From a virus, in the IMG/VR virus record IMGVR_UViG_3300043775_000899, positions 1 through 21,853 of that record: a stretch of DNA of 21,853 bases; one strand, written 5' to 3'. Each line of letters begins with the position of its first letter. Within the stretch, counting starts at the first letter, position 1. A program made the translations under genes and the position numbers. This document shows positions 2,803 through 21,853 of the stretch, in pieces. The notes below the pieces were generated by a model. That model saw only the letters and a list, made by a program, of their open reading frames with translations, made no database searches and was not told the origin of the DNA.

Positions 2803-2893
2803 TATATACATATATAATAAAAAAATAAACATTATAAATATCCTTTTCTAATAATATTTTTATAGATATATTTATTGTAAGGAAACAAAATTT
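2803..2893 (+). promoter_or_regulatory. Intergenic leader with T4-type late promoter
   Basis: This 91-base, almost pure A/T gap contains an exact TATAAATA at 2833-2840, the consensus -10 element of T4 late promoters (recognised by gp55 with gp33 and gp45 in T4). No -35 is expected. Predicted transcription start is about 2846-2848, leaving a leader of roughly 46 bases. An AAGGAA purine run at about 2879-2884 sits in ribosome-binding position before the ATG at 2894. It is the only exact late box seen in an intergenic region of the window. Confidence 0.6.
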
Positions 2894-6430: not shown

Positions 6431-6433
6431 CCT

Positions 6434-7678: not shown

Positions 7679-8262
7679 TGGTTATTAAAATTTATAATAA
7701 CATAATAATGGCACCTGTAAAATGTGGTAGTAGGTATTTGGACAAAGTTTGGGAATCCGAAAGAACAGAATATATACATTATCAATACCTTAAATTTCCG
7801 AAGGTAAAATATATTGTAATAAGGGAACCGATGAGTCATTTAATAACCGCGTTACATACTGAAACAGTTGGATTTATAAATGAATTTGGTAGACGAGATG
7901 ATTTTTACCACCAATTAAACGACTTTATTAGTGTTGATGGTGCAACTCATTGGTGTGTTCCTTTTTATGAATATCTTTATTATTATAGAAACAAATATGG
8001 TGAAGATATTGAGGTGGTTAAATTGGAAAATTTAACTGAACTGTTAAAAAATTTAGGACATAATATCCAATATGTTCCTGAAGAATACCACTTCAAAAAA
8101 TACGAAAAATGGTGGTCTAAAGAAGATTTATTTAAAATGTTAAAGGAAATGTACCCAAAAGAGATAAATTGGTTAATAGATAAAGTCGAAACACAAAAAA
8201 TATATTATGAAAAACTTTTAAATAATGAAATAAATATAAATTTAAGAGGTAATGTATTATGA
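7678..8262 (+). CDS. Divergent sulfotransferase-like protein
   Basis: This 194-residue protein has a hydrophobic strand then APVKCGSRYLDKV (residues 12-24), where sulfotransferases have PKCGST, and YIVIREPMSHLITALHTE (about 45-62), which fits the conserved VRDPxxRxxSal element binding the 3'-phosphate of PAPS. Thr/Ser of the GST triplet is Arg19 here, which would weaken the phosphosulfate loop. Similar small, divergent proteins are frequent in aquatic phages. It overlaps the previous gene by one base and the next by four. It ends LRGNVL, at best a degenerate version of the C-terminal signature. Enzyme activity is uncertain. Confidence 0.55.
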   Translation: MVIKIYNNIIMAPVKCGSRYLDKVWESERTEYIHYQYLKFPKVKYIVIREPMSHLITALHTETVGFINEFGRRDDFYHQLNDFISVDGATHWCVPFYEYLYYYRNKYGEDIEVVKLENLTELLKNLGHNIQYVPEEYHFKKYEKWWSKEDLFKMLKEMYPKEINWLIDKVETQKIYYEKLLNNEININLRGNVL

Positions 8263-9032
8263 AATCAATGAAGTTTTGGACAAGTTCGGGGTTTGAGGTG
8301 GGTAACCATTCTTGGAGATTAGATGAACGTAGAAATAAAACATTCAACACATCAGGTTCCGATATTTCCGAAACTAATACCTACACATACAATGAAATGG
8401 GATTCAGGGGGGATTCATTATATAGGGACGGGTTTAGAATAATGTCAGTTGGTTGTTCCCACACTGAAGGTGTCGGGGTAAGTGATGACCAAACTTGGCC
8501 TCACTATTTCTCAAGACAGATACAGAACGGGGTAGATTTAAATTTGGGGTTTGGTGGACGTAGTAATGATTACATTGCCAGATGTATAATCACCTTAACT
8601 CAAAAGATAAGACCTAATTTGGTTAACTTAATGTACACCTATCCATCCCGTAAAGAATACTACCGATACAACGGAGAGTTGGAACCATTTCATATGACTC
8701 CTTGGGGTTATTTTAAGGAAGATAATGAAGGGAAGGAGGAGTATAAATCAATTGCAAGAATTACCCACGACGAGAACGATTTAATCAATTGGTACAAAAA
8801 CCATCTTCTAATTACCAATTATTTGGAGAACAGGAACATCCCATATATATGGAACGGTTCTTTCCTGATGGATAACGAATATTCTGACAAATATCGGTTC
8901 GATGGTGACTACGGAGATTTCCGTGAATTTTCTATTGATGGTAAACACGCAACCCCAAAACACAACGAAGAATACTCCAAAAAACTACTTCAGTTTGTAA
9001 AATCCAATTTTCCCGATTATTTACCTAAATAA
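8259..9032 (+). CDS. SGNH/GDSL-hydrolase-like phage protein
   Basis: A 257-residue protein with YNEMGFRG (residues 44-51) followed by IMSVGCSHTEGVGV (61-74). This is a common phage arrangement of the SGNH block I in which the Asp of GDS is Cys66 and Ser67 is the nucleophile. GFGGRSND (97-104) is the Gly/Asn block, and IDGKH (226-230) supplies a proper DxxH pair (Asp227, His230), unlike the SGNH protein at 4552. An AAGAGGT site at 8244-8250, eight bases before the ATG, is one of the few good Shine-Dalgarno sequences in the cassette and supports this start. It ends in YLPK and so lacks the cassette tag. It is the last gene before the fibre region. Confidence 0.72.
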   Translation: MKSMKFWTSSGFEVGNHSWRLDERRNKTFNTSGSDISETNTYTYNEMGFRGDSLYRDGFRIMSVGCSHTEGVGVSDDQTWPHYFSRQIQNGVDLNLGFGGRSNDYIARCIITLTQKIRPNLVNLMYTYPSRKEYYRYNGELEPFHMTPWGYFKEDNEGKEEYKSIARITHDENDLINWYKNHLLITNYLENRNIPYIWNGSFLMDNEYSDKYRFDGDYGDFREFSIDGKHATPKHNEEYSKKLLQFVKSNFPDYLPK

Positions 9033-9086
9033 ACGGAAGTCATAACCGACAAACAAAGTATTTATCTAAGTATAATAACATATTAG
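9033..9086 (+). promoter_or_regulatory. Intergenic gap with possible promoter before the tail fibre
   Basis: A 54-base gap holds TATAAT at 9071-9076, with a weak CCGACA 19 bases upstream. If used, transcription would start about four bases before the fibre ATG. The larger TATAATAA also partly resembles a late box. No terminator hairpin is visible. The call is tentative. Confidence 0.3.
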
Positions 9087-12000
9087 ATGAATATATTTGA
9101 CGCACACATATCGGGTTCCCTGTCGGTATCCTCTTCAGCGGAAATACAGGGAGACTTAAGGGTACTTGGAATAATTAATGCAACCATTAGTGGTAACACC
9201 ACAAGTGCGGATACCGCATCTTTTGCTCCGAGATATACCCTAACCTCAAGTTTTTACGCTTACTCAGGAACTACCAATGGTAGATTAACCGCGATAGAAA
9301 CCTCAACCGCGAGTTTAAACACATTTACATCAAGTGCTGATGGTAGATTAACTTCAATTGAGGGGGTTACTGGTTCTATATCCTCGTTAAACACATACAC
9401 AGGAAGTAACAATACTGTTATCGGTACATTACAAACTGCAACATCAAGTTTAAACACATTCACGTCAAGTGCTTCGGATAGGTTAGTTGCATTGGAGACA
9501 TCTACAGGTTCAATAAACACCTATACATCATCTAATACAACCAATATAAACGCTATTCATACCTCAACTGCGAGTTTGAATACATATACGGGAAGTAACA
9601 ACACCGTTATTGGTACATTACAAACGTCCACAGGAAGTTTGAACACTTATACAAGTTCAAACACTACAAATATAAATGCAATTCACACAGCAACCGCAAG
9701 TTTGAATTCATTTTCCTCAAGTGCGGGTGGTAGATTAACTTCTATTGAGGGGGTAACCGGTTCAATCGCAGCATTGAATACTTACACAGGTTCGAACAAC
9801 ACCGCAATCAATGCATTGAATTCTTACACGAGTAGTAACACTACTAATATTAATGCGATTCATACTGCAACAAGTAGTTTAAATTCATATACAAGTTCAA
9901 ACACAACAAACATAAATGCTATTCATACTGCAACAAGTAGTTTGAATAGTTTCACAAGTAGTGCTTCGGGTAGATTAACCGCGTTAGAAACTGCGTCAAG
10001 TAGTTTAAATTCTTACACGAGTAGTAACACAACCGCAATTAATGCGTTGAATTCATTTACTACATCATTTAACACCGCATTTGGTTTAAGTGGTGCGAAT
10101 GTTACGGTTAAAGGTAATTTAACAGTGCAAGGTTCAACAACTCAAGTTGATTCAACAACTGTTAATATTGGTGATAATATTATTCAATTAAATGGTACAG
10201 GGGCAACTAATGCAGGTATCGTTGTTAGAGATGCCACATCACCAACATTTACTTCAGGTTCATTCCTTTGGGATTCAACAAATGATAAATGGGTTGCAGG
10301 TCCGTTAGGTTCTGAAGACGAAGTTGTATTAAAGACAGCATCACAAGCACTAACAAACAAAACAATTAGTGGAGGTTCCAACACATTATCAAATATTGGT
10401 AATTCTTCACTTACAAATAGTTCAATTACAATTGCGGGTACGAGTACATCATTAGGTGGTTCAATAACCGCCGCAACAATATTAACATCAACAGGTGTTT
10501 GGTCGGGTTCGGCTCAGTTACCTGCGGGAGTTGTAAGTGGTTCTGCTCAGGTAATTGCAAATTTACCATCAGGTACGGTATCAGGTTCGTCACAAGTATT
10601 AAGTGGTACAGGTATTTGGTCGGGTTCAGCTCAACTCCCAAGTGGTGTAGTATCAGGAAGTTCACAGGTATTGGCTGGAACAACAATACATTCAGGTAGT
10701 TTCTTTAATGGAATATCCGTAGTATCCGGTTCCGCACAAATATCATTCAATGGTATAACTGACAAACCAGCATTGGTTTCGGGCTCTTCTCAAATATCAC
10801 TAGCATCAACAACAGGATTTGGAACATATTTAAATCAAGCCGTTTTAACAACATCAACACCAACATTTGATTATGTAATTACTTCAAATAATGCGAACGG
10901 TACAAATATTAGACTTGGTGATGACACTTGGATTGGTGATATTAATATTGCTAATACATTTAGAGTTCAGGGTTTACAAGATGCAACACAAGGATATATC
11001 GTATTTGGTAACAGTAACACAACTGCGTTAGGTAGAAGTGGAACAGGTGCATTAACTTATGGTGGAAATACTGTCTATCACGCAGGTAACTTAACAAACC
11101 TTAACCAATTAACAAATGGTCCTGGTTACATTACAGGTATTAACTCAAGTGCTGTAACTACGGCGTTAGGATATACACCATATAATGCAACCAATCCAAG
11201 TGGTTATATTAGTTCATACACTGAAACTGATACGTTGTCGTCAGTAACTGCTCGTGGAGCAACTTCATCTACTCAAATTACTCTTTCGGGTAAATTAAGA
11301 ATGAGTTCCGATTTAGGTATAGATGCGGGTAATGCATTATATTTTGGTAGGGAAGAATCTTTTGGTGGCTCTAATACAGGTGGTGACGATTATGGTTACA
11401 TAACATTTGACAATAATAGTACAACTTATAGTGATGCTGGTGGTACTGAAAGGTCAGTACTTAGAATAGGTACATCTAATGATGGTGTAGGTAGTGTGGA
11501 AGATAACTTAGCCCTTGAATCTACCGCCAACATATATTTAAATCCTGCAGGTGTCATATATCGTGGTAATAAAGCAACGAGATATACAATTTGGGATTCG
11601 GGTAATTTAACTAACCTTAACCAATTAACAAACGGTCCGGGTTATATTACCGGCATTTCATTCGCAAACGTATCATCCAAACCAACAACGATTAGTGGGT
11701 ATGGAATAACGGATGCAATTACAACAGGTAATATTGGTTCACAATCCGTATCATACGCAACAACCGCAGGTTCACTGACCAGTATGAACATATCTCAGTT
11801 TACAAACAACTCTGGTTATTTAACAAGTGTAACGAATATTAGTGGTACTGCAGGTAGTGAAACTCTCGCAACCGTTACAGGAAGAGGTGCGAGCACAAGT
11901 ACGGCAATTTCTATTAATAATACTTTGACGGTTACAAGTGGTAGATTAATTGTAAGAACGGGAGGTGCCAACACATATGGTATTGTGTCAGGTTATGACA

Positions 12001-13031
12001 ACAGTAATCACTTGATGACATTTAGAGCCGACATTGCGGGTGCAACAAGTTCCCCAACACTTACTGCGGGACACCAAATGTGTTTTGTTGAATATGCCGA
12101 AGCTAACGACACCACAGGTTGGTTTTTTAAATCATCATCAACAGGGACGTACCAAGAAATAGCTAGAATTACAAGGTCAACATTTAACTATAACGGATAC
12201 ACAGTTTATCACTCGGGTAATATACCTACGTGGAACCAAAATACCACAGGAACGGCATCTAACATTACTGCATATACAATTAATCAAAGTGTCGGTACCG
12301 GCAACTCCCCAACATTTGCTGGGGTATCAGCATCACAAGTGGCGGCAACATCTACGGCAGATGCTACCGGATTATCATTAAGAAGTACCTCAGAGGTTTT
12401 AAGTGGTGAAGGATGGTGTACCGCATTATATTGTTATAATAATAATGATGGTTTCTTAGTGGTAGGTAGAGACGCTAGTGCAAATGCTCGACCTGTTTTC
12501 CACGTGGGTGGTTTTAACAACGCAGGACACGGAGGTTGGAGTGACGGAGATGCGATGGTTACTTTAGTTAGAATGGATGGAGTTAAAACCACGGGTAGTG
12601 CTAATTCATATAGAGGTTTATCTAACTCATCATATTATTCTAATATTGTAAAAACAACATCAAGAACTGAGTTTAAAGATTCACAAGGAGCGCACTATTT
12701 CAACGGCACATTAACAACCGGTGGTAATATGACAGTTGGTGGTACGTTAACTGAAAACTCATCAATCCGATATAAGAAAGATGTTGAAACCATTAGTTAT
12801 GGTTTGGATAAAGTTTTACAATTAAGAGGCGTTACTTACATTAAAAAAGAGAATAACGTTAAAGAAATGGGTGTTATTGCGGAAGAAATTGCCGAAATTT
12901 TACCTGATGTGGTACTTTACGATTCAGAAGGTAAAGTAGATTCCGTATCTTATGGTAGAATTACTGCGGTATTAATCGAGGCGATAAAAGATTTGAAAAA
13001 AGAAATAAACGAATTAAAGAATAATGGCTAA
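9087..13031 (+). CDS. Long tail fibre with C-terminal S74 chaperone domain
   Basis: A 1314-residue Ser/Thr/Asn/Gly-rich fibre subunit. The order is: N-terminal segment (IFDAHISGSLSVSSSAEIQG), then 21-residue coiled-coil-like repeats (about 73-328), then a LTVQGSTTQVDSTTVNIGDN and LTNKTISGGSNTLSNI module typical of T4-like marine fibres (about 345-450). A string of VSGSAQ/VSGSSQ repeats follows (about 471-571), then two copies of LTNLNQLTNGPGYITGI (from 669 and 841) each after a YHAGN- or WDSGN-type lead-in. The peptidase S74 intramolecular chaperone occupies about 1225-1314 (SSIRYKKDVETI, GVIAEEIAEILPDVV, SVSYGRITAVLIEAIKDL). In the family, this domain trimerises the fibre and cuts itself off just before the Ser of the SxRxKK motif, here Ser1225/Ser1226. 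The gene overlaps the next one by eight bases. Confidence 0.92.
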   Translation: MNIFDAHISGSLSVSSSAEIQGDLRVLGIINATISGNTTSADTASFAPRYTLTSSFYAYSGTTNGRLTAIETSTASLNTFTSSADGRLTSIEGVTGSISSLNTYTGSNNTVIGTLQTATSSLNTFTSSASDRLVALETSTGSINTYTSSNTTNINAIHTSTASLNTYTGSNNTVIGTLQTSTGSLNTYTSSNTTNINAIHTATASLNSFSSSAGGRLTSIEGVTGSIAALNTYTGSNNTAINALNSYTSSNTTNINAIHTATSSLNSYTSSNTTNINAIHTATSSLNSFTSSASGRLTALETASSSLNSYTSSNTTAINALNSFTTSFNTAFGLSGANVTVKGNLTVQGSTTQVDSTTVNIGDNIIQLNGTGATNAGIVVRDATSPTFTSGSFLWDSTNDKWVAGPLGSEDEVVLKTASQALTNKTISGGSNTLSNIGNSSLTNSSITIAGTSTSLGGSITAATILTSTGVWSGSAQLPAGVVSGSAQVIANLPSGTVSGSSQVLSGTGIWSGSAQLPSGVVSGSSQVLAGTTIHSGSFFNGISVVSGSAQISFNGITDKPALVSGSSQISLASTTGFGTYLNQAVLTTSTPTFDYVITSNNANGTNIRLGDDTWIGDINIANTFRVQGLQDATQGYIVFGNSNTTALGRSGTGALTYGGNTVYHAGNLTNLNQLTNGPGYITGINSSAVTTALGYTPYNATNPSGYISSYTETDTLSSVTARGATSSTQITLSGKLRMSSDLGIDAGNALYFGREESFGGSNTGGDDYGYITFDNNSTTYSDAGGTERSVLRIGTSNDGVGSVEDNLALESTANIYLNPAGVIYRGNKATRYTIWDSGNLTNLNQLTNGPGYITGISFANVSSKPTTISGYGITDAITTGNIGSQSVSYATTAGSLTSMNISQFTNNSGYLTSVTNISGTAGSETLATVTGRGASTSTAISINNTLTVTSGRLIVRTGGANTYGIVSGYDNSNHLMTFRADIAGATSSPTLTAGHQMCFVEYAEANDTTGWFFKSSSTGTYQEIARITRSTFNYNGYTVYHSGNIPTWNQNTTGTASNITAYTINQSVGTGNSPTFAGVSASQVAATSTADATGLSLRSTSEVLSGEGWCTALYCYNNNDGFLVVGRDASANARPVFHVGGFNNAGHGGWSDGDAMVTLVRMDGVKTTGSANSYRGLSNSSYYSNIVKTTSRTEFKDSQGAHYFNGTLTTGGNMTVGGTLTENSSIRYKKDVETISYGLDKVLQLRGVTYIKKENNVKEMGVIAEEIAEILPDVVLYDSEGKVDSVSYGRITAVLIEAIKDLKKEINELKNNG
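9306..10074 (+). repeat. Tandem 21-residue (63-base) repeats in the fibre
   Basis: Roughly a dozen imperfect units of the form SSLNxYTSSNTTNINAIHTAT, alternating with NNTVIGTLQT and GRLTxIE versions. Leu/Tyr/Ile recur with heptad spacing (three heptads per unit), which suits a trimeric fibre shaft. The copies are close at protein level but differ at many synonymous positions. Confidence 0.75.
10499..10800 (+). repeat. VSGS[AS]Q[VIL] repeats in the fibre
   Basis: Short units coding SGSAQLP(A/S)GVVSGS(A/S)QV and VSGSxQIS recur eight or so times with variable linkers. They lie between the NTLSNIGNSSLTNSS module and the next beta-rich part, probably as shaft beta-structure. The two GSAQLPxGVVSGSxQV copies differ mainly at third codon positions. 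Confidence 0.6.
11091..11657 (+). repeat. Duplicated LTNLNQLTNGPGYITGI module
   Basis: The same 17 residues are coded at 11091-11141 and at 11607-11657, with most differences synonymous. Each follows a [YW]-x-[AS]GN lead-in. This motif is common in phage fibres and marks duplicated shaft modules within the protein. Confidence 0.65.
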
Positions 13032-13452
13032 TTTTTTAGCAAATACGAGACCAGCACCTGGCGTTCAGTTGGGATTTTTTAGAGATAGGTATTATGGTGG
13101 AAACAATTATTTTCACTATAAAACAAATATCAATATGGCTAACATTATGTGTACCATTGAAGCTGTTGGTTATGCGTATGGTGCGAATCAAGCCATTAGA
13201 GCGGCTTGGAGTTTTTATGCTTATGCCGCTAGTAGTTCAACAATTAATATTGGGACATCTAATGCTTATGGTGGTTTGAGTGCTCACGGAGTTTACACAT
13301 CATCAGATGGATATGTAGTTATAAGAGCGAACTGTGCATCGTATTATAGTGGATGGATTCTTAATGCGTATTGTTTAAATCCGACAGGATATAATTTTGA
13401 GGTTAGTATACTTGCTAGCGTTCAAACAGATAATGCAGGAAACTACTACTAA
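13024..13452 (+). CDS. Fibre-tip/adhesin-like protein, paralogue 1 of 3
   Basis: A 142-residue protein, Tyr/Ala/Gly/Ser-rich and beta-predicted, with no signal peptide. It shares a backbone with the next two genes: IEAVGYAYG, AIRAAWSFY, LSAHGVYTSSDGYVVI, YYSGWILNAY and a final SVQTDNAGNYY. No named domain is recognised. The position directly after the fibre (eight-base overlap) and before an assembly-like protein suggests a receptor-binding or fibre-tip subunit. The unique parts are the N-terminal 35 residues and the loops between the shared strands, as expected for variable binding surfaces. Function is inferred from context. Confidence 0.75.
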   Translation: MANFLANTRPAPGVQLGFFRDRYYGGNNYFHYKTNINMANIMCTIEAVGYAYGANQAIRAAWSFYAYAASSSTINIGTSNAYGGLSAHGVYTSSDGYVVIRANCASYYSGWILNAYCLNPTGYNFEVSILASVQTDNAGNYY

Positions 13453-13889
13453 TGGCTAATTTACAAGGAACTGGAATATATCCTGAAGGAGGTTACTTAG
13501 AGCAACTTGGAATTTATAATGTTGCCAATTTGTCATCAGGTGGTGGTCAATATTATCATATGAAATTGAACATCACCCACCAATCATATCAAATGATTAT
13601 GATTGAGGCTGTTGGATATAATTACGGGACATCTGCACCAATTAGATGTGCTTGGAATTTTTATACTTACACATATTTTTTTGGTAATGTCCAAACTTCA
13701 GCATACGATGGGATGACGGCACATAGTCACTATGTTGCATCAGATAATAAAATCGTAATAGTGGGATATGCAAGTAGTTTATATTATTGTGGATTTACGT
13801 TAAATGCGTACAATACCGCAGGAAACGGTTATGGAACCATAACATCCGTAGTATCTGCGGTTCAAACATCAGCAGCAACATATTATTAA
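13452..13889 (+). CDS. Fibre-tip/adhesin-like protein, paralogue 2 of 3
   Basis: A 145-residue paralogue of the genes on either side. Shared elements are YYHMKLNI, IEAVGYNYGTSAPIRCAWNFY, MTAHSHYVASDNKIVIV, YYCGFTLNAY and VVSAVQTSAATYY. It begins on the last base of the previous stop (TAATG), so translation is coupled. The loop between the Trp strand and the AHxxY strand differs completely from the sisters (YTYFFGNVQTSAYDG). It is probably a receptor-binding or tip subunit. Confidence 0.75.
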   Translation: MANLQGTGIYPEGGYLEQLGIYNVANLSSGGGQYYHMKLNITHQSYQMIMIEAVGYNYGTSAPIRCAWNFYTYTYFFGNVQTSAYDGMTAHSHYVASDNKIVIVGYASSLYYCGFTLNAYNTAGNGYGTITSVVSAVQTSAATYY

Positions 13890-13892
13890 ACT

Positions 13893-14381
13893 ATGGCAAT
13901 ATTAACACCACCATTTAGAATAGGTTCAGTAAGTAGTTGGTACTTTCAACAAAAGTACATCTACACTTTTAATACCACTGCGGGTAGTCCATTGTATATT
14001 CATATGAAGACTAATTTAATTGGTGCAACAACATATAATATGTGGATGTTCGAAGCGGTTGGTTATAATTACGGAGTTGCAGCGCCTATCAGATGTTCGT
14101 GGGGTTTTCACATTAGTACTGCAGGTATGCCGTATACTAATGGTTTCCTTTACAATATAGGTTTAAGAAATCAATACCCTGGTATGTCCGCACACGGAGT
14201 TTATATTGCGTCTGATGGGTATATTGTATTAAGAGCATATGCGAATGGTAGTAATTATTATAACGGATTTACATTGAACGCTTACGCAACTAGAAGTGAT
14301 GTGACACAATCAAATGTAAGTATAATTGCAGCGGTTCAAACAAGTGATAGTGGCAACTATTACGGAGGACCAGTACAATAA
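13893..14381 (+). CDS. Fibre-tip/adhesin-like protein, paralogue 3 of 3
   Basis: A 162-residue paralogue and the longest of the three. Shared elements are LYIHMKTNL, FEAVGYNYGVAAPIRCSWGFH, MSAHGVYIASDGYIVLRAY, YYNGFTLNAY and IAAVQTSDSGNYY. It has an enlarged loop after the Trp strand (ISTAGMPYTNGFLYNIGLRNQ) and an extra GGPVQ tail. It starts three bases after paralogue 2. It shares PIRC with paralogue 2, so those two look closest. The tandem set indicates gene duplication at the adhesion locus. Confidence 0.75.
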   Translation: MAILTPPFRIGSVSSWYFQQKYIYTFNTTAGSPLYIHMKTNLIGATTYNMWMFEAVGYNYGVAAPIRCSWGFHISTAGMPYTNGFLYNIGLRNQYPGMSAHGVYIASDGYIVLRAYANGSNYYNGFTLNAYATRSDVTQSNVSIIAAVQTSDSGNYYGGPVQ

Positions 14382-14393
14382 AATTAAAAATAT

Positions 14394-14765
14394 ATGAGAA
14401 GATTTATTGACAATTTAGGAGTATTTCATTTATTACTCGACGGAGAAACTCCCCAAGAAAGTTGGACGGAGGTTATTGACCAATATAAAAGGTATAAAGC
14501 ACCAAATGGTGATATTCATACCATATTATTCGATGCCGAACCCGAAGAAGATTGGGTTGAAGATAATATTGAATATATGCCATATCCCGACCCTTCATAT
14601 GTTCCACCATATGGTGCATTAAGAAAGATGAGTTACCCTGATTTAGGAGAACAATTGGATATGTTATGGCACGAAATAAATGAAAATGGTTCGATATCAT
14701 CTTCAGGACAATGGTTCCAATCTATTAGTGATGTTAAAACTCAGTTCCCTAAAGACGAAGAATAA
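14394..14765 (+). CDS. Tail-fibre-assembly-like protein
   Basis: A 123-residue acidic protein. Its C-terminal third, YGALRKMSYPDLGEQLDMLWH followed by WFQSISDVKTQFPKDEE, matches the phage pattern (R)xYPxxxEQLDMLxHDI...WxxxIxxVKxxFPK. That pattern recurs in tail-fibre-assembly and tail-accessory proteins of many phages. The N-terminal part (FIDNLGVFHLLLDGE, TILFDAEPEEDWVEDNI) is less conserved. It stands 12 bases after the last adhesin paralogue and closes the host-recognition module. Whether it acts as a chaperone or is a virion component cannot be told from the sequence. Confidence 0.65.
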   Translation: MRRFIDNLGVFHLLLDGETPQESWTEVIDQYKRYKAPNGDIHTILFDAEPEEDWVEDNIEYMPYPDPSYVPPYGALRKMSYPDLGEQLDMLWHEINENGSISSSGQWFQSISDVKTQFPKDEE

Positions 14766-14767
14766 CA

Positions 14768-14802
14768 TTGACATTTATGAAAATTTTTAGTATAATTAAT
14801 TT
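14768..14802 (+). promoter_or_regulatory. Perfect sigma70-type promoter, near-leaderless
   Basis: TTGACA (14768-14773), a 17-base spacer and TATAAT (14791-14796) match both consensus hexamers and the optimal spacing. The -10 ends six bases before the ATG at 14803, so the predicted start (about seven bases past the -10) falls on or next to the A of the ATG. There is no room for a ribosome-binding site. Confidence 0.78.
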
Positions 14803-15258
14803 ATGGAAAAGATATCATTAAAATTAAAAGACGTACTTCAATTAGAAAGTGAAATTAACGGATTTACCAATCCTGAGACCGGTGAAAAATATTATGAAGG
14901 ATTTATAAATCAAAAATTACCAATCATCTTAAAATATGATTTGACCGAAACTACAAAATTTTTAGAAACTGAAAGAAAAAAAGTAGATAACTTAAGAGAT
15001 GAATTAGTAACCAAATATGGTAAGATGGACAATAATGGTAGAATTGTTGTTAATACGCATATCTTCGAAAAAGATGAAAATGGTGTTATCATCTCAAAAA
15101 AATTGAATCCTGATTACTTAGAATTTGAAAAGGAATATACTCAATTACTAGATAAAGAGATTGAGGTGGAATACCCCGAAATTACTAAAGAAGATTTGAT
15201 AAACGCAGGAAAAACAAAAGATAATTATATAGTTTTATTTAGACTAATTAAAAAATAA
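14803..15258 (+). CDS. DUF1617-like phage protein
   Basis: A 151-residue, Lys/Glu-rich, mostly helical protein. LPIILKYDLTETTKFLETERKK followed by LRDELVTKYGKMDNNGRIVV and FEKEYTQLLDKEIEVEYP resembles the small DUF1617-like phage proteins, which have a YG...(D/E)xxG...F.KEYxxLL layout. The function of that family is unknown. It is the only gene here with a private consensus promoter and is closed by its own terminator, so it may be expressed by host RNA polymerase early in infection, apart from the late fibre genes. The family match is from memory of the pattern and is tentative. Confidence 0.6.
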   Translation: MEKISLKLKDVLQLESEINGFTNPETGEKYYEGFINQKLPIILKYDLTETTKFLETERKKVDNLRDELVTKYGKMDNNGRIVVNTHIFEKDENGVIISKKLNPDYLEFEKEYTQLLDKEIEVEYPEITKEDLINAGKTKDNYIVLFRLIKK

Positions 15259-15278
15259 GGAGGTTATTTAACCTCCTT
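15257..15278. terminator. Bidirectional hairpin terminator between convergent genes
   Basis: A perfect 9-bp inverted repeat, AAGGAGGTT (15257-15265) and AACCTCCTT (15270-15278), with loop ATTT. T-rich sequence follows on the + strand (TCTTATTTCT) and a run of T follows on the - strand (ATTTTTTAATTA). The hairpin overlaps the stop codon of the + gene. It also contains the last codons and stop of the - strand glycosyltransferase. Confidence 0.85.
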
Positions 15279-16376
15279 TCTTATTTCTATCATCATATTA
15301 CCAATTTGATATTCCCCTACCTCATAATAGGGTATTGATAACCTTAATTTATGTAAGGTTCTAATATCCATATCATCAAATGGTGCAGTTTCATAAATCA
15401 TCACATCTACGTTATCTGTGAACGTAAATTTCGACCTTAAATCGTAACGGGTATTCTTCTGTTCATTTTCAATATAGTCCTCAGGAATCGTCCCTATTTC
15501 GATTTTATCGAAGAATGGTTCAATCTCCATAAAACGATTTCTATTGTTGGTGGTTAATCCCATCGTGAAGGTTTTATACTTAAAGTTCTTCTCTTCCCAA
15601 TATCTTAGTTCATTGAATGCTGAGAATGGTATTCCCCACTTCCTAACAAAGTTTCTATTGGATGATACTTCGATGATTCTTCTATCAACTCTCATATCAT
15701 CACTGAATCTTGAAGTCTGCGAAACAAAATGATAAACAATTGCGGAATCACAAGTCTTTAGTTCATAACCTTTTAGTTTCGCACGAACCAAAAAATCATC
15801 ATCCTCACAGAAACACGGAACAAAACTAAATCCATCGAAACCACCCACATCATCAAACATCTTTTTAGTTCCACTCATAAAGAATACTGCACCATCATAT
15901 AGATTCTTACTATCCTTCCATTGATTAACGTAATTGTTGAAATGGAAATAATCGAAGTCATCAAAACTAGAACCTAAATTCAATAAAACTTTACCTGGTC
16001 TTAAGTGACCTTTGAATATTGGAGGCTCTACTGTGGTGTAAGAGATGATAGTATTTGAATTCTCATCCAATAACGATTCTAAGTTCTCAAGAAAGTGTTC
16101 ACCTAAAATCATATCGTTATGAATCAATACTAATTTATCGGTATCGACTAACTTGATTCCTGCGTTATATGTGTCTGAGAATGTTATTCTATCGTCATCG
16201 TGTATGAATGAAAGATTGTCGTCTTCTAATGATTCTAACCACTCTTTCGTTCCATCACTTGAACCACCACTACTAATCACAAATGGGGCGTCAGGATATA
16301 ACAGACGAACTCTCTCATAACATTTTTTTGTTAGGTCTAATTTATTGTAGACCGCCATTACTAATGATATACTCAT
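15264..16376 (-). CDS. Glycosyltransferase family 2 with C-terminal extension
   Basis: A 370-residue protein with a GT-A fold N-terminus: ISLVMAVYNKLDLTKKC at the start, GGSSDGTKEW (about 37-46) and HND (about 86-88) as the metal-binding DxD equivalent. GGFDGF...CEDDDFLVRAKLKGY (about 180-207) is the acceptor and catalytic-base region of rhamnosyl-type GT2 enzymes. Residues from about 250 form an extra domain of no recognised family. It transfers a sugar from a nucleotide donor to an unknown acceptor. It is the last gene of the - strand operon. Its coding end (RKEVK) lies inside the terminator stem, and its start overlaps the upstream gene by four bases. Confidence 0.85.
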   Translation of the reverse strand: MSISLVMAVYNKLDLTKKCYERVRLLYPDAPFVISSGGSSDGTKEWLESLEDDNLSFIHDDDRITFSDTYNAGIKLVDTDKLVLIHNDMILGEHFLENLESLLDENSNTIISYTTVEPPIFKGHLRPGKVLLNLGSSFDDFDYFHFNNYVNQWKDSKNLYDGAVFFMSGTKKMFDDVGGFDGFSFVPCFCEDDDFLVRAKLKGYELKTCDSAIVYHFVSQTSRFSDDMRVDRRIIEVSSNRNFVRKWGIPFSAFNELRYWEEKNFKYKTFTMGLTTNNRNRFMEIEPFFDKIEIGTIPEDYIENEQKNTRYDLRSKFTFTDNVDVMIYETAPFDDMDIRTLHKLRLSIPYYEVGEYQIGNMMIEIRKEVK

Positions 16377-16996
16377 CTCATTTTACTTATTACGTTCGCC
16401 CAAGCAATTCCGTCTTCTCTAATAACAGGACTGAACTCAGCTTTTAATACTGTTTTTGATATATGTCCACCCATTTTCCAGTTTAACATTTGGAATGCTT
16501 GTTTAGGTCCTTTGTGAATTAAAAAATTATCACCATACCATACTTTTATTTCAGGAGGTATCGGTCTATAAGATTTCTTATGTATAAAAAATAAACAGGC
16601 GAACCCACCAATTAATTGATAAATCGGTGTTAACAAAAACCTTCCTTTAGGTTCCGTCCAACAACCATCACCCAATCCAATAATACCTTTTTCTTCAGTG
16701 ATGCTATCGTGGATTTTATCAAGTAAAGACCAGTCAGTTGTTATATCATCATTAAGAAACATTAATTTATCTTCCTTTGCCATTGAATAACCTTTATTCC
16801 AAGCAGGGTTTACGTATGTGTTCTTACCTTCTTTAACATAAACTAATTTTGGTATTTCTTCTTTTATATGAATCTCATCATCATTTGTGTTATCAATCAA
16901 AATCAATTCACTAACTAAAGGATGTGAAGTAACTTCTTTAATTAATTCGACAACACCATCCGGCACGAACATCGTCGGCATTATTACACTTATCAT
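16373..16996 (-). CDS. Glycosyltransferase family 2-like (compact)
   Basis: A 207-residue protein with a GT-A start (ISVIMPTM), a nucleotide-binding strand (ELILIDNTND), NPAWNKGYSMA (about 62-72) and a metal motif FLNDDI (about 79-84). GGFACLFFIHKKSY and YGDNFLIHK follow where GT2 enzymes contact the acceptor. It is shorter than most GT2 proteins and lacks the C-terminal helices. It overlaps the downstream GT2 gene by four bases and follows the epimerase by three, so all three are probably made from one transcript. Confidence 0.75.
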   Translation of the reverse strand: MISVIMPTMFVPDGVVELIKEVTSHPLVSELILIDNTNDDEIHIKEEIPKLVYVKEGKNTYVNPAWNKGYSMAKEDKLMFLNDDITTDWSLLDKIHDSITEEKGIIGLGDGCWTEPKGRFLLTPIYQLIGGFACLFFIHKKSYRPIPPEIKVWYGDNFLIHKGPKQAFQMLNWKMGGHISKTVLKAEFSPVIREDGIAWANVISKMR

Positions 16997-16999
16997 ATA

Positions 17000-17998
17000 T
17001 TATTTTTTATTTTTCCAAAATGAATAAATTCCTTTATCTAACTCATAGAACGGCCAAACAAATCTTTCCCTTACAGGTTGTTGTTTTGCCCAATCCCACA
17101 TCTTCGTTAGTCCTTCCTTCAAATCCGTCTTAAACTCAAAATCTAATAGGTCTATTGATTTTTGCCAAGTAGGTATCGAATGTTTAACTTCGTGTCTTTG
17201 TTCATAATATTGAACAGAACCACCACCAACAACTTCTCTTAATATTTCATTAGCTTCATTGATTGAATATTCTTTGATACCACCAAGATTAATAATTTGT
17301 TTACTTGCTCTAACATCTTGAGACGCTTTCCATAATGGACCAAGGCTATCATCGATATAACTAAATGCTCTTGTTTGTGTACCATCACCAAAGATTGTCA
17401 TTGGTTCACCAATCATATGTTGATACATCCAAATACCTAATACGTTTCTATACTTGTCCCATATGTTTTGTTTAACTCCAAATACATTATGAGGACGAAT
17501 GATACACCAATCTAATCCGTGTTGTTCACCAGCAATTTGAATATCCATTTCACAACCATACTTAGCAACACCATATGGGTCAATAGGTTTAGGTACTTGA
17601 ACCTCATCAAACATATTACCGTCTTGGTGACCATACACTGCTAATGTTGATGTAAACACTAAACGTTTAACATCGTGTTTGATACATTGTGTTATGATTC
17701 TTGATGTTGCAACTAAATTGTTTTGATAGTTGTAAGTTCTAATGAATGGTGACAACCCTTCTGCTGCGTATGCTGCAAAGTGATAAACATAATCAAACTT
17801 ATGAACCTCGAAACAATTTTCAATTGGATGTTCAACCAAATTCATTTGCCAAAACTCAACCTTTGGGTTTACATTTTCTTTGTAACCACCACTCAAGTCA
17901 TCCATACCAACTATGTGTACATCTGGATGATTCTCGGCAATATAGTCTGCTAATCTCGACCCTAATAATCCTGCTACTCCTGTAATTAATATCTTCAT
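17000..17998 (-). CDS. NAD-dependent nucleotide-sugar epimerase/dehydratase
   Basis: A 332-residue extended short-chain dehydrogenase. The Rossmann motif GVAGLLG (residues 7-13) gives the GxxGxxG dinucleotide site. Ser117/Thr118 in FTSTLAVYG and Y142-x3-K146 (PYGVAKYG) complete the catalytic set. IIRPHNVFG and FGDGTQTRAFSYIDD are the substrate-side signatures shared with GalE-like and dTDP-glucose-dehydratase-like enzymes. It should interconvert UDP-, dTDP- or GDP-sugars to supply the neighbouring glycosyltransferases. The exact sugar cannot be fixed. The end (VWPFYELDKGIYSFWKNKK) is longer than in plain GalE. Confidence 0.9.
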   Translation of the reverse strand: MKILITGVAGLLGSRLADYIAENHPDVHIVGMDDLSGGYKENVNPKVEFWQMNLVEHPIENCFEVHKFDYVYHFAAYAAEGLSPFIRTYNYQNNLVATSRIITQCIKHDVKRLVFTSTLAVYGHQDGNMFDEVQVPKPIDPYGVAKYGCEMDIQIAGEQHGLDWCIIRPHNVFGVKQNIWDKYRNVLGIWMYQHMIGEPMTIFGDGTQTRAFSYIDDSLGPLWKASQDVRASKQIINLGGIKEYSINEANEILREVVGGGSVQYYEQRHEVKHSIPTWQKSIDLLDFEFKTDLKEGLTKMWDWAKQQPVRERFVWPFYELDKGIYSFWKNKK

Positions 17999-17999
17999 T

Positions 18000-18620
18000 T
18001 TATAATGTTAAGTAAAAGTTATTTTGTTTTTCTTGTCTTTCAATTTTTTTATGATGGATTATACAAAAATCTTCACTATCAGGTAACGAGGTAACTGTTT
18101 CAGCCCCCATTATTCTTTCGTGAACATTACCGAACCACTTTAAATTCTTTCTGAATATTCTACCCTGTTTATCAGGAAAGTTAATCCAACCTTTTTGATT
18201 TACACTCCAACCCCACTTCCTTATGTGTTCGTCAGTTATACCATCAACAATGTTTATTCTTGATAGATAATATAAATCAACTTCAGGATTAGTTTCGAGT
18301 ATCGGTTTGATGTTTAACATAAACATTTCACCAACCAACTCATCAGCATCCAATTGGAATATATAATCTCCTTTACAATAGTCAGATAATTTGTTCTTCC
18401 AATCAGCAAAATTATTTTTAAAATCTAATCCTCTCCAAGTTTGTACATTTGGTAATTTATTAAACTCTAACAAATACTCAAGTACTTCAGGAGAACCATT
18501 GGTCTCATCAAAAAGAATCACCACCTCATCATTGATTCCTTTTTTCTCAATTAAGAAAGGTAACAATCTTTTGATTTCATCTAATTCATTACAAACTGTA
18601 ATTGCGTAACTTAATATCAT
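18000..18620 (-). CDS. Glycosyltransferase family 2 protein
   Basis: A 206-residue GT-A protein: SYAITVCNELDEIKRLL (start), VVILFDETNGS, and the metal motif DYIFQLDADE (about 85-94) with DAD coordinating the divalent cation. RIFRKNLKWFGNVHERI near residues 153-169 is the GxVHE segment seen in WaaE- and SunS-like GT2 enzymes that act on LPS core sugars or peptides. It is compact, about one catalytic domain. One base separates it from the epimerase downstream and three bases from the small gene upstream. The acceptor is unknown. Confidence 0.83.
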   Translation of the reverse strand: MILSYAITVCNELDEIKRLLPFLIEKKGINDEVVILFDETNGSPEVLEYLLEFNKLPNVQTWRGLDFKNNFADWKNKLSDYCKGDYIFQLDADELVGEMFMLNIKPILETNPEVDLYYLSRINIVDGITDEHIRKWGWSVNQKGWINFPDKQGRIFRKNLKWFGNVHERIMGAETVTSLPDSEDFCIIHHKKIERQEKQNNFYLTL

Positions 18621-18623
18621 ATT

Positions 18624-18842
18624 TTATGCTCTTTGATTATATCCTCCGTTTATTCTTCTTGTTAGTTGATTCACAATGTCGTTATCAATTTCACGAGAAA
18701 TCTGTTCAGAAAGTGCTCTTGATAATTCTGATACGACATCAGTATAATTGACACCATCATCTATTAATTCCGGTCTCCAATCCACACGTAACACTCTTCC
18801 TTTTTTAGGTATACCCCAGAAAAATTTAAATTCACTAACCAT
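18624..18842 (-). CDS. Small hypothetical protein, 72 residues
   Basis: The N-terminal part is short beta-like and basic/aromatic (FKFFWGIPKKGRVLRVDWRPE). A predicted amphipathic helix follows (VVSELSRALSEQISREIDNDIVNQLTRRINGG). The family is not recognised. It overlaps the upstream 85-residue gene by eight bases, so the two are probably translated together and may act together. Both sit inside the glycosyltransferase operon but look more like small structural or accessory phage proteins. Confidence 0.65.
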   Translation of the reverse strand: MVSEFKFFWGIPKKGRVLRVDWRPELIDDGVNYTDVVSELSRALSEQISREIDNDIVNQLTRRINGGYNQRA

Positions 18843-19092
18843 TTATAGCCTCCCTTGCAAATAATTTAAATGTTGAGCCCTCATTACTTGTGAATGTCAC
18901 AATACCATCGGGAGTTGGAGACAAACGAATAGTACATTCATTAGAACCTGTTGCAAATACCGTAGGTTCGTTGTTCCCGAACTGAAAACAAAATTCTACA
19001 TTTTGAAATGTTGGTCGGTAAAATGTTAACATTTGCATTGGTTCCAATTGTAAATATGAATCTGTTTTTCCTTTAAAAAATTTAAATGACAT
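18835..19092 (-). CDS. Small hypothetical beta-rich protein, 85 residues
   Basis: A beta-rich protein (LTFYRPTFQNVEFCFQFG, PTVFATGSNECTIRLS, GIVTFTSNEGSTFKLFA) with two Cys and no signal peptide or membrane segment. No family is recognised. The alternating hydrophobic pattern suits a small beta-sandwich, as in decoration or head-completion proteins, but this is only a shape argument. Its start shares one base with the stop of the upstream GT4 gene, and its end overlaps the next gene by eight bases. Confidence 0.65.
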   Translation of the reverse strand: MSFKFFKGKTDSYLQLEPMQMLTFYRPTFQNVEFCFQFGNNEPTVFATGSNECTIRLSPTPDGIVTFTSNEGSTFKLFAREAING

Positions 19093-20339
19093 TACTTAAT
19101 TTTTGTAAGCTTTGGTAAAACCAAATTATGTTCTTTCGGTTGAACGGTATATGGTTTAATCAAATTCATAAACACATCTTTCATTTTTTCCATTGAGAAC
19201 TTTTCTTTATTTTCTTCTCTTAGTGTTTCTGATTTTTCTTTGAATTTGTCATAATCATTTTTAACCAATCTTAACACTTCTGCGAACTCATTATAGTTTG
19301 CGGTAAACCATTTAGAACCCTTTAATATGAAACTATCAGCAGCACTTTCGTGTACATCGGTCAACGAACCTCCAACCATAATTGCCTTATCCATTGGTAA
19401 GAAATCTTTATGACCTGACCAGTTAGATGCGATGATTGGTTTTCCTGTCATTGAAAATTCTAATAGAGGTCTACCAAAACCTTCACCTTTGGTAATTGAT
19501 ACCATTGACTTAATTTTTGGATGATTGTACAATTCGTTCATTTCTTGATTGGTCAATTCACCAAACAATAGATAAACAGATGGAGGATTATCATATCCGT
19601 TTGTCAACTCTTCAATCTTTCTTCTCATATTCTCACGTTCTTTAATTGAGAATGTTGCTGAAGAAGTCTTAAGTACAAGAGCGGGTTTATCCTCAACGTC
19701 TTTGAATGATTCCATAAAACATTTAATCATCATTCCCACATCCTTTCTATCCTGTCCGAGTGAACCTTTCAACCAATGACCAACAAACAAGTATGCGAAA
19801 TCTTCTTTGATATCCAAATCAATACCATTATATTCATTGTTGAATGTAGTAACATCGACACCTTCAAATAGAACCTCAACCGGTTTTTGTATCTTGTGTT
19901 GTTTAATTAATTTTCCTGTGTTGTTTTCGTTCTCATTGTATACTGTTGATAACAATACTTCTTTTGAAAACTTTGATGTTGTTATAACTAAATCCATTCT
20001 ATTACAACCATCAATCCATTCTTTAGGTGCAACTGTGGTTTCAATTCCTGCAGTTATACCTACGTTAAACTTACCTCTCCTTTCAAATTCATTAGGTACA
20101 GTTACTTGGACATAGAAATCAGAAGTAACACCGGCAGGGTTAATTATATTTGACTCAATCCATTTATGAAATTGATTACCCTTCTCCAACGCAGTCATTG
20201 GTGTTGACCCCCACATACAACTATCTATCTTTATCTCAAACAAATCCATTTCGTATAGTGATTGTAATAAATCTCTTGAATGTGCACCATACCCACTTCT
20301 TGTTTTTACCGGTCCTCTAAATAATAAAAATGGTTTCAT
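19092..20339 (-). CDS. Glycosyltransferase, GT4-type (GT-B fold)
   Basis: A 415-residue GT-B enzyme. The N-terminal part begins with RGPVKTRSGYGAHSRDLL, the GGxxxHxxxL-like acceptor-side opening of GT4 proteins. FAYLFVGHW starts the C-terminal Rossmann domain, and the nucleotide-sugar motif EGFGRPLLEFSMTGKPIIAS (E-x7-E form) lies near residues 285-305. It would move a sugar from a UDP- or GDP-donor. The C-terminus runs into a Lys/Glu-rich helix (EKSETLREENKEKFSMEK). It is one base from the upstream GT4 gene, so the pair is likely to act in sequence on one acceptor. Confidence 0.87.
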   Translation of the reverse strand: MKPFLLFRGPVKTRSGYGAHSRDLLQSLYEMDLFEIKIDSCMWGSTPMTALEKGNQFHKWIESNIINPAGVTSDFYVQVTVPNEFERRGKFNVGITAGIETTVAPKEWIDGCNRMDLVITTSKFSKEVLLSTVYNENENNTGKLIKQHKIQKPVEVLFEGVDVTTFNNEYNGIDLDIKEDFAYLFVGHWLKGSLGQDRKDVGMMIKCFMESFKDVEDKPALVLKTSSATFSIKERENMRRKIEELTNGYDNPPSVYLLFGELTNQEMNELYNHPKIKSMVSITKGEGFGRPLLEFSMTGKPIIASNWSGHKDFLPMDKAIMVGGSLTDVHESAADSFILKGSKWFTANYNEFAEVLRLVKNDYDKFKEKSETLREENKEKFSMEKMKDVFMNLIKPYTVQPKEHNLVLPKLTKIK

Positions 20340-20340
20340 A

Positions 20341-21696
20341 TTATACTATCTTATATAATTCAAATCTTTCTCTTGGTTTATAGTTTTCAAAAACTCTTTC
20401 AATACCTTCAATCAATGAGTTATTCATAATGTCTGAAGATAAATTCTCAATCATAAATTCTCTACCTAACAAACCTCTTCTCTTTCTTTCTTCCTTATTC
20501 CAAGAGTAAACAGTGGCGATTTTATTTGCAACCTCATCATCATTAACTCTATCGTCAAAGATGTAAGGTGTAGGTACTGAACCATTTAAGTTAATTGCTG
20601 CTGGCCAAATAGGAAGAACCCATTCACCGTGTAATGTCGAACCGTGTGTTTTCTTATCGTGTAGAGTACCAAATGTTATGTAGTCATCGGCACTATAATT
20701 AAATCCACATTGGTCTTGTAAACCACCAGTTACATTTACAATAATTGGTGTACCCGCCATTAATGATTCTGCGGTTGTTAAACCAAACCCTTCATTGTTC
20801 GCAATGTTAATGGTACAATCAACAAGATTGTAAATTTCATTTAACTTATCTTGTTCTAATTTTAATCCTGTAAATTTAACATCATAAGGACACAATGCTT
20901 TAATCACTGCAGGTAAATCAGTCCCGTTCTCATCAACAGCCGCTGTGTGCATTAATAATAAACATTTGTCCGATTGTTCTTTTGGTAATTTATCGCAGAA
21001 TAATTTATAAGAGTAGATTACATCCGATGGTTGTTTTCTTCTTATGTTTCTGTTGTTATAGAACAACACAAAATCATATTCTTTATCACCGAACATTAGT
21101 TTTTTAATGTCATCACTAACCTCATCTAAAGGTTTGAATACCTTCGGATTGATTCCGTGAGGAACATAACTAATTTGCCAATCCTCCAATGGTTTATGTG
21201 TAACCTCATCAATCATTTTACCAACTCGATGAACAATACCATATGTTTGTTTAGATATGCAACCAACCCAATCACAACTCTCGTAATAATCTCTATTGTA
21301 TTTTGGGTCAGGCAAATCATCCCAAATGTGATAATATAATATTGGGACTTGTTGTCTTATCTCGTGTTCATTGTCATATAACCACTGCCAATAATGTGGG
21401 TCGGTGAAGTGTAAGATAGCGTCTGGTTTTTCAAGTGCCAATAATGTTCTTAAAATATTAATATCACCATAACCGTGGTTAGGATATATTTTAAGATTCG
21501 CATCTTCGATACCTGTTCTTTCTCTCACATCTTGATTCACATCCACCACTTTACCAAACTCAGGATGTTGAATTGCAGCACCCAATTGTACCCAATCGTA
21601 CTTGTGAATTGTTCCCAATACAAGTTCCCTTGACATAGTAGATATACCTGATGTCATTCTCAAATCATCAGATAATAATAATATCTTTTTTTTCAT
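20341..21696 (-). CDS. Glycosyltransferase, GT4-type (GT-B fold)
   Basis: A 451-residue GT-B enzyme. It opens KKKILLLSDDLRMTSGISTMSREL, a variant of the GT4 glycine loop (SGI in place of GG). FVLFYNNRNIRRKQPSDVIYSY begins the donor domain, with the donor motif EGFGLTTAESLMAGTPIIV (E-x7-E) and TGGLQDQ after it (about residues 300-330). A WQWLYDNEHEIR...PILYYHIWDDLP stretch in the N-domain fits the glycogen-synthase/GT4 architecture. The start is an ATG followed by a Lys run with no clear Shine-Dalgarno, three bases after the stop of the upstream truncated gene. The acceptor is unknown. Confidence 0.87.
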   Translation of the reverse strand: MKKKILLLSDDLRMTSGISTMSRELVLGTIHKYDWVQLGAAIQHPEFGKVVDVNQDVRERTGIEDANLKIYPNHGYGDINILRTLLALEKPDAILHFTDPHYWQWLYDNEHEIRQQVPILYYHIWDDLPDPKYNRDYYESCDWVGCISKQTYGIVHRVGKMIDEVTHKPLEDWQISYVPHGINPKVFKPLDEVSDDIKKLMFGDKEYDFVLFYNNRNIRRKQPSDVIYSYKLFCDKLPKEQSDKCLLLMHTAAVDENGTDLPAVIKALCPYDVKFTGLKLEQDKLNEIYNLVDCTINIANNEGFGLTTAESLMAGTPIIVNVTGGLQDQCGFNYSADDYITFGTLHDKKTHGSTLHGEWVLPIWPAAINLNGSVPTPYIFDDRVNDDEVANKIATVYSWNKEERKRRGLLGREFMIENLSSDIMNNSLIEGIERVFENYKPRERFELYKIV

Positions 21697-21699
21697 TAA

Positions 21700-21853
21700 T
21701 TAAAACTTTGAACCACTAGACGCTAATCCGTTATGATTGTCAATCTTGTCTTTAAAATCTTCACTCTTAGTATATAAATCTAAAGACCTGTTTACAAGTT
21801 TTTGTAGATTGATTGAACCATCAATCGATTTAATTTTGAATTTTTTATAAACA
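21700..21853 (-). CDS. Unidentified protein, C-terminal end only (5' part outside window)
   Basis: Reading in from the right edge on the - strand there is an open frame of 50 residues, beginning VYKKFKIKSIDGSINLQKLV and ending GLASSGSKF, with stop at 21700-21702. It lies three bases upstream of the GT4 start and in the same strand, matching the tight packing of the operon, so it is probably a real gene end. The piece is too short to assign to a family. Any promoter of the operon must lie further upstream, outside the window. Confidence 0.6.
   Translation of the reverse strand, partial: VYKKFKIKSIDGSINLQKLVNRSLDLYTKSEDFKDKIDNHNGLASSGSKF

Follow-up and report, generated by a model that had tools for sequence, protein, structure and literature searches.

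Promoter and genes in the window

The window analyzed here is the whole 21,853-nt stretch of the viral record IMGVR_UViG_3300043775_000899, with an AT content of 67%. Beside its fibre genes, it encodes a 151-aa protein of unknown function, followed by a terminator-like stem and a convergent glycosyltransferase gene (Table 1). As originally predicted, a perfect TTGACA-17-TATAAT lies in front of the 151-aa gene, with its −10 element ending 6 nt before the ATG (intervening bases: TAATTT). This is the sole perfect match to the two hexamers in the window (12/12 at spacer 17), and it sits in the correct orientation in a 37-nt gap after the upstream stop codon. A usual −10-to-+1 distance of 6 nt puts the predicted +1 at the A of ATG 14803, and the claim that this geometry places the transcription start on the start codon, yielding a 5′-AUG mRNA, is borne out as a prediction from sequence.

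Table 1. Features of the window discussed in the text.
Feature	Position	Strand	Remarks
Late-type TATTTAT	2869..2875	+	18 nt before ATG of gene 2894–4384; leadered
Late-type TATTTAT	9059..9065	+	Ends 21 nt before fibre ATG; leadered
TATAAT named in the original prediction	9071..9076	+	10 nt from ATG, in trough of distance distribution; GACAAA at spacer 17
−35 element TTGACA	14768..14773	+	TTG, TTT or TTC here in 47/48 distinct upstream regions of relatives scoring at least 9/12
17-nt spacer	14774..14790	+	Differs among the 3 distinct upstream sequences of the window's clade; both hexamers constant
−10 element TATAAT	14791..14796	+	TATATT in most relatives
ATG start codon	14803..14805	+	A is the predicted +1, judged by −10 spacing and by the 6-nt peak seen genome-wide; base −1 is T
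151-aa protein, phrog_1401	14803..15258	+	Function unknown; early/host-type promoter class
Terminator-like stem, 9 pairs, loop 4	15257..15278		Scores on both strands; starts within stop codon, between convergent genes
Family 2 glycosyltransferase	15264..16376	−	Convergent; similar convergent gene follows in most relatives examined

In DNA this rich in AT, and with many such windows screened, a chance match has to be weighed. Sigma70-like sites overall show no excess in 5000–21853 (75 found versus 86.3 ± 7.5 in shuffles), so that only the 14768–14796 site stands out. With the spacer set at exactly 17, however, only 0.010 perfect matches are expected per window (3 matches in 300 shuffles), and 0.17 if spacers of 15–19 on both strands are allowed (at least one match in 16 of 100 shuffles). 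Coincidence was thus already disfavored, and conservation across relatives and a genome-wide peak at the same distance, both described below, make it very improbable.

Several other features were recorded along the window. A TTGATA-18-TATAAT (11/12) lies on the + strand at 18719–18748, within minus-strand genes, while TATAAT strings at the junctions of genes 504 and 19092 were rejected as promoters because they are stop/start overlaps (ATA TAA T ATG). Between 504 and 8262, genes are tightly packed and lack Shine-Dalgarno signals, and many of the encoded proteins end in LI or LL as a result of stop codons that overlap or directly adjoin the next start codon (ATATAAATG-like junctions). The 496-aa protein encoded at 2894–4384 has no Pfam match and carries a cysteine-rich tail (CWCPWNYCGHWCNSWYC), preceded by a layout reminiscent of a Hint/intein-like end. 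After the fibre gene, three consecutive similar small genes (13024–14381; 142, 145, and 162 aa) share NAY and GYxYG-like stretches without clear family assignment.

The 151-aa protein, its relatives, and their promoters

The AlphaFold2 model of the 151-aa protein was confident, with a mean pLDDT of 92.4. Foldseek matched this model to nothing in the PDB at E ≤ 0.001, VIA-align produced no match reaching Z ≥ 5, and 22 matches with E ≤ 0.001 were obtained in BFVD, the named ones being uncharacterized phage proteins and several others nameless. By sequence, nothing convincing was found in the PDB (best E 0.1), and Pfam returned only DUF7572, below cut-off, for the window protein and scattered weak matches for its relatives. 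Matches to Campylobacter “homing endonucleases” (E 0.7–1) were not retained as relatives. No close relative was detected among isolate phages with two other family members as query, and none was confirmed among genome contigs. In IMG/VR, a first scan provided 13 confirmed loci and a profile scan at least 128 relatives, 80 of which were returned and 37 aligned. The gene is thus not “lone” as had been claimed: beyond these relatives, its promoter is conserved, and a convergent glycosyltransferase usually follows the gene. In the 37-relative alignment, M1 is invariant and the N-terminus is conserved, which makes a downstream start unlikely; we rejected the downstream start codons on the basis of this invariance, and the possibility, raised with the original prediction, of a true start further downstream is improbable accordingly.

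Upstream regions of the orthologues (84 loci, corresponding to 52 distinct 50-nt sequences) support the promoter as well: with the spacer fixed at 17, 48 of the 52 score at least 9/12, and when the spacer could range from 14 to 20, a length of 17 ranked among the best for 46 of the 52 sequences, a number that averaged 18.0 and never exceeded 25 in 40 shuffled sets. An EM motif search returned one sensible motif and two composition artefacts. The form common in relatives is TTGACT or TTTACT, 17 nt, and TATATT, and its −10 element ends 13–24 nt before the ATG in 45 of the 48 regions. For this gene, the 6-nt placement is confined to the window's clade (3 distinct upstream sequences), while L082 and L083 also display a perfect TTGACA-17-TATAAT, but 24 nt from the ATG. 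From this comparison, the simplest reading looks to be that the leader was lost in the window's clade, where leaderlessness would be derived. In L084, the −35 element of the orthologue lies within an inverted repeat (TTGACTT...AAGTCAA), a possible operator.

The four remaining regions (L011, L013, L014, and L066) score 8, and in the first three the late-type TATATATTTATATA takes the place of the host-type promoter. In L011 and L013, the gene directly precedes what we take, from sequence, to be tail sheath and tail tube genes, a context that hints at a tail-related role for the protein. This lineage also bears on whether most expression of the window gene stems from late fibre operon transcripts that continue into it, with a weak or idle promoter and a long-leadered working mRNA. 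Such read-through would be consistent with the late-type motif and the tail gene neighbors in this lineage, with the late motif in front of the fibre gene, and with the layout of the window, where the upstream genes end 2 nt before the −35 element and no terminator-like site lies between 14765 and 14768. As the main source of expression we nevertheless consider it unlikely, because the promoter is kept in 48 of the 52 distinct upstream regions although the upstream neighbor differs between lineages, and because a terminator directly follows the gene. The original prediction of a gene under its own control inside a late structural region is instead upheld insofar as the promoter of the window gene, though beside fibre genes, belongs to a non-late class.

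Genes with their own promoter and terminator, inserted between phage genes, are known as morons, and the 151-aa gene carries both a promoter and a terminator-like stem of its own. Across relatives, its left neighbor varies and its right neighbor is mostly the same convergent glycosyltransferase.

Distances between −10 elements and start codons across the phage group

We evaluated the spacing of −10 elements in nine contigs carrying the gene (1.33 Mb), which provided 769 upstream regions with a gap of at least 15 nt in 512 orthologue clusters, with gene starts called as the first ATG of the open frame. TATAAT itself was not enriched at 6 nt, being found there in only 3 of 769 regions. For TATNTT, on the other hand, 40 regions had the motif at 6 nt, compared to 16 and 17 at 5 and 7 nt, followed by a trough (3, 4, 6, and 1 at 10–13 nt) and a broad second peak near 20 (26 at 19 nt). 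The reversed control motif was flat, with 11 at 6 nt and 12, 6, 7, and 15 at 10–13 nt. Counted per orthologue cluster, TATNTT at 6 nt was found in 26 clusters versus a local baseline of 5.4 (Poisson 1.7e-10; these statistics treat clusters as independent and are hence approximate).

Two features that were not used in choosing the sites set apart the 28 clusters with a −10 element at 6 nt (TATAAT included). The −35 TT was found at the 17-spaced position in 23 of the 28, compared to 18 of 53 for sites at 8–14 nt (Fisher 5e-5), and a pyrimidine preceded the ATG in 27 of 28 compared to 231 of 410 elsewhere (5e-6). TTG was observed exactly 23 nt before the −10 element in 12 of the 28, and adenine at −3 showed no significant difference (11/28 leaderless versus 218/410 other genes). 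In these phages, −10 elements some 12 bp upstream of a start codon thus form a genome-wide class that exceeds chance.

These distributions also bear on whether a real promoter could initiate a few nucleotides away from the ATG and leave a very short leader instead of none. Transcription start sites can vary by 1–2 nt, and the counts at 5 and 7 nt (13 and 14 clusters) likewise exceed those in the trough. However, the peak at 6 nt is sharp, counts are low at 10–13 nt, and the near-invariant T or C at −1 (27/28 clusters) is as expected for a start at the A of the ATG, so that we regard a short leader as quite improbable.

A second, late-type motif showed a similar proximity to start codons. TATTTAT had 51 cluster counts at 4–6 nt versus 4.5 expected from 7–12 nt, with a second group from 13 nt, and these 51 counts are part of 185 cluster-by-distance counts within 30 nt. 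Here too, a pyrimidine preceded the ATG more often than elsewhere (44/50 late-type clusters versus 231/410; 6e-6).

Six additional contigs, comprising 616,523 bases and 370 regions in 312 clusters, served as a hold-out set, and both classes were recovered in it. Host-type elements were found at 6 nt in 15 clusters versus 3.0 expected (6.7e-7), with the −35 TT in 12/16 versus 8/34 (0.0014) and a pyrimidine at −1 in 15/16 versus 121/231, while late-type elements reached 28 at 4–6 nt versus 6.0 (6.3e-11), with a pyrimidine at −1 in 25/28 versus 121/231. Among the 107 hold-out clusters lacking a homologue in the initial nine contigs, the late-type peak persisted (9 versus 2.0; 2.4e-4) and the host-type 6-nt peak was absent (1 versus 1.57).

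A PHROGs scan of representatives of 80–800 aa covered 93 of 123 late clusters and 72 of 94 host-type clusters. Late-led genes included terminase large subunit, portal, virion structural, head-tail adaptor, and fibre families, with matches to homing endonucleases and PhoH too, and a gp25-like baseplate wedge protein had the late-type leaderless geometry in all 3 cluster members. Genes of the host-type class included primase, sigma factor, methyltransferase, tRNA nucleotidyltransferase, protease, and glycosyltransferase families, with a RuvC-like resolvase and a primase as single leaderless cases. Ribosomal protein bS21, considered as a phage-wide helper of leaderless translation, was present in only 1 of 12 records, namely G010, where 280773–280964 encodes a small protein whose match to S21 passes the Pfam cut-off.

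The fibre gene of the window does not belong to either of the close-spaced groups. A TATAAT 10 nt before its ATG had been proposed to have a geometry similar to that of the 151-aa gene. The string is there, but its −35 slot (GACAAA) matches at only 2/6 positions, and a late-type TATTTAT lies at 9059–9065; without a −35 element at spacer 17, it was not retained as a comparable case.

Host, interpretation, and known systems

The nearest long relative of the window is G004, a contig of 159,820 bases (the contig of L006) whose 151-aa homologue is 97% identical. Its baseplate wedge protein matched 9 phage records, including four of Flavobacterium phage immuto (29% identity), and for its ribonucleotide reductase, 79 of the 80 genome loci among the matches listed had Bacteroidota titles, the other being Omnitrophica. 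Shine-Dalgarno-like strings were near chance in six contigs (e.g., 5 of 199 genes in G004 versus 1.9 shuffled), similar to Bacteroidota loci (10/1200) but not to T4 (29/125). Signal peptides ending in SFSQ or AFSQ were observed, which presumably fit a Bacteroidota host. By these comparisons, the host is most likely a member of the Bacteroidota.

When a phage from the environment shows a perfect E. coli consensus, the polymerase that reads it is not necessarily of the E. coli type. The Bacteroidota primary sigma uses TTTG/TAnnTTTG, and E. coli promoters are reportedly not expressed in Bacteroidetes (PMC6847099). Given the likely host, the E. coli framing of the original prediction is therefore probably wrong: the family-wide −10 is TATATT, and TATAAT is not enriched at 6 nt. 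In F. johnsoniae, the −7 element TAnnTTTG extends from T−12 to G−5, 4–5 nt before the start, and the register of the 6-nt sites agrees with the mapped promoter described there (PMC6847099). Combined with a TATNTT ending 6 nt before the ATG, this register would place +1 on the A of the ATG. The window's TATAATTA matches 4/6 of T−12, A−11, T−8, T−7, T−6, and G−5, and the relatives' TATATTTT matches 5/6, while the TTG expected at the −33 element is found at 14768. Judged by these comparisons, the site is a variant of the TTG-20-TATATT class proper to the phage, and its perfect agreement with the E. coli consensus is in part accidental.

Candidate sigma factors are encoded by the phages themselves. 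A primary-type sigma of about 270 aa is found in G004 (39458–40267), with homologues in G008, G009, G010, G011, and G014; the four of these phage sigmas that were scanned contain both region 2 and region 4 and are similar in sequence to primary sigmas. One search detected a sigma70 region 2 protein above the cut-off in 5 of 12 records, and a second search did so in 1 of 5. With such a sigma in at least six of the related contigs, the polymerase that reads the promoter may or may not be the unmodified host enzyme of the original prediction.

Taken together, the promoter, the conserved start codon, the terminator, the conservation among relatives, and the group-wide excess of −10 elements at 6 nt are all present in sequence and establish the promoter as real, and a leaderless mRNA is its most likely product given geometry and comparison. 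Against a leaderless reading, the −10 element is TATAAT, seen at 6 nt in 3/769 regions, and only 4/6 near-invariant positions of TAnnTTTG are matched. The missing host-type peak in hold-out clusters without homologue and the restriction of the 6-nt placement of this gene to one clade also speak against it. We consider it likely that this is a genuine non-late promoter of the 151-aa gene, with an RNA that starts at the A of ATG 14803, lacks a leader, and ends at 15257–15278. An RNA polymerase with a Bacteroidota-type primary sigma, either the host's or the phage's own, would read 14768–14796 as a member of the TTG-20 nt-TATATT/TATAAT class that is the non-late class of the phage group. With RNA beginning at the A of ATG 14803, the 5′ AUG itself would be the ribosome signal, probably through 70S-type translation, and timing would be early or constitutive. 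Transcription would end at the terminator. The late fibre operon has no terminator upstream of 14768, and its read-through would probably add leadered late transcripts. Of the original reading, a real, non-late promoter owned by the gene thus stands, while its E. coli-type sigma70, its “lone” gene, and the parallel with the fibre TATAAT are not supported.

Beyond this gene, the no-leader arrangement seems to apply to many genes of related phages, including those for parts of the particle; the hosts of these phages are probably Bacteroidota. In a broader reading, to which we give an even chance, widespread uncultivated T4-like phages of Bacteroidota would rely on leaderless mRNAs for a substantial share of their proteins, terminase, portal, and baseplate components among them. 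Over one quarter of late-type promoters would be positioned for transcription to begin at the AUG, probably with a primary-type sigma of the phage itself, in hosts with a small leaderless minority; leadered and leaderless units would form two separate groups, with short leaders avoided, and the window gene would be one non-late member. With such a separation, a phage could shift translation between the two groups during infection. If true, this would represent leaderless translation at large scale for virion proteins, in a phylum without Shine-Dalgarno signals where translation initiation is still poorly understood.

A similar geometry exists in the likely hosts. In 79 Bacteroidota loci (1.53 Mb, 1200 regions, without the Omnitrophica-titled L185), TATNTT peaked at 6 nt (34 sites, with counts of 3 and 13 at the neighboring distances), and the host-type leaderless share was not clearly higher in phages (TAHHTT at 6 nt in 51/769 regions versus 65/1200 in hosts). 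Published leaderless minorities are in line with this: about 3.7% of 5′ UTRs are shorter than 10 nt in B. thetaiotaomicron (PMC7366714), and 5.5% are leaderless in F. psychrophilum (PMC9723704). A host-type leaderless class is thus present in hosts at low level, sharing the geometry of the phage sites. TATTTAT, however, was nearly absent from the host loci at these distances (2 at 4 nt and none at 5 or 6 nt in 1200 regions), and the late-type leaderless class is, by this motif comparison, what sets these phages apart from hosts.

Among reference phages, no clear peak was found in P-SSM2 (160,000 of 252,401 bases used), crAss001 (100,000 of 102,679), or phi14:2 (100,000 of 100,418), all with small numbers, nor a clear leaderless peak in Flavobacterium phage immuto (3 TATNTT at 5–7 nt, 2 TATTTAT at 4–6 nt); for G013 and G018, 100,000 of 101,769 and 60,000 of 60,471 bases were used. 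T4 has sigma70-like early promoters and AT-rich, −10-only late promoters, and the phages studied here are alike in this early/late split. However, the T4 late motif TATAAATA was found only at 13–28 nt within the counted range, with none at 4–7 nt and no TATNTT at 5–7 nt, whereas TATTTAT here often lies at 4–6 nt.

To our knowledge, most leaderless mRNAs described in phages belong to single genes, an example being lambda cI, which is transcribed from the host-type promoter PRM as a leaderless mRNA. The likeness to lambda thus lies in a phage leaderless mRNA, of one regulatory gene there and of many genes, including virion genes, here. A literature search, mostly at title level, yielded no genome-wide leaderless class for T4-like or Bacteroidota phages. 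The AR9 paper states, in a passage citing an E. coli study, that phage transcripts are often leaderless (PMC5312081), and this statement counts against novelty. In the survey of Zheng et al. 2011, bacterial leaderless genes carry a TANNNT box some 12 bp ahead of their start codon and are found chiefly in Actinobacteria and Deinococcus-Thermus but in only 1 of 37 Bacteroidetes/Chlorobi genomes, and leaderless initiation is noted in lambda phage (PMC3160421). The cases described here resemble those genes in the −10 element about 12 bp before the ATG, the missing leader, and the start codon as signal, and differ from them in occurring in phages and in including a second, late-type motif.
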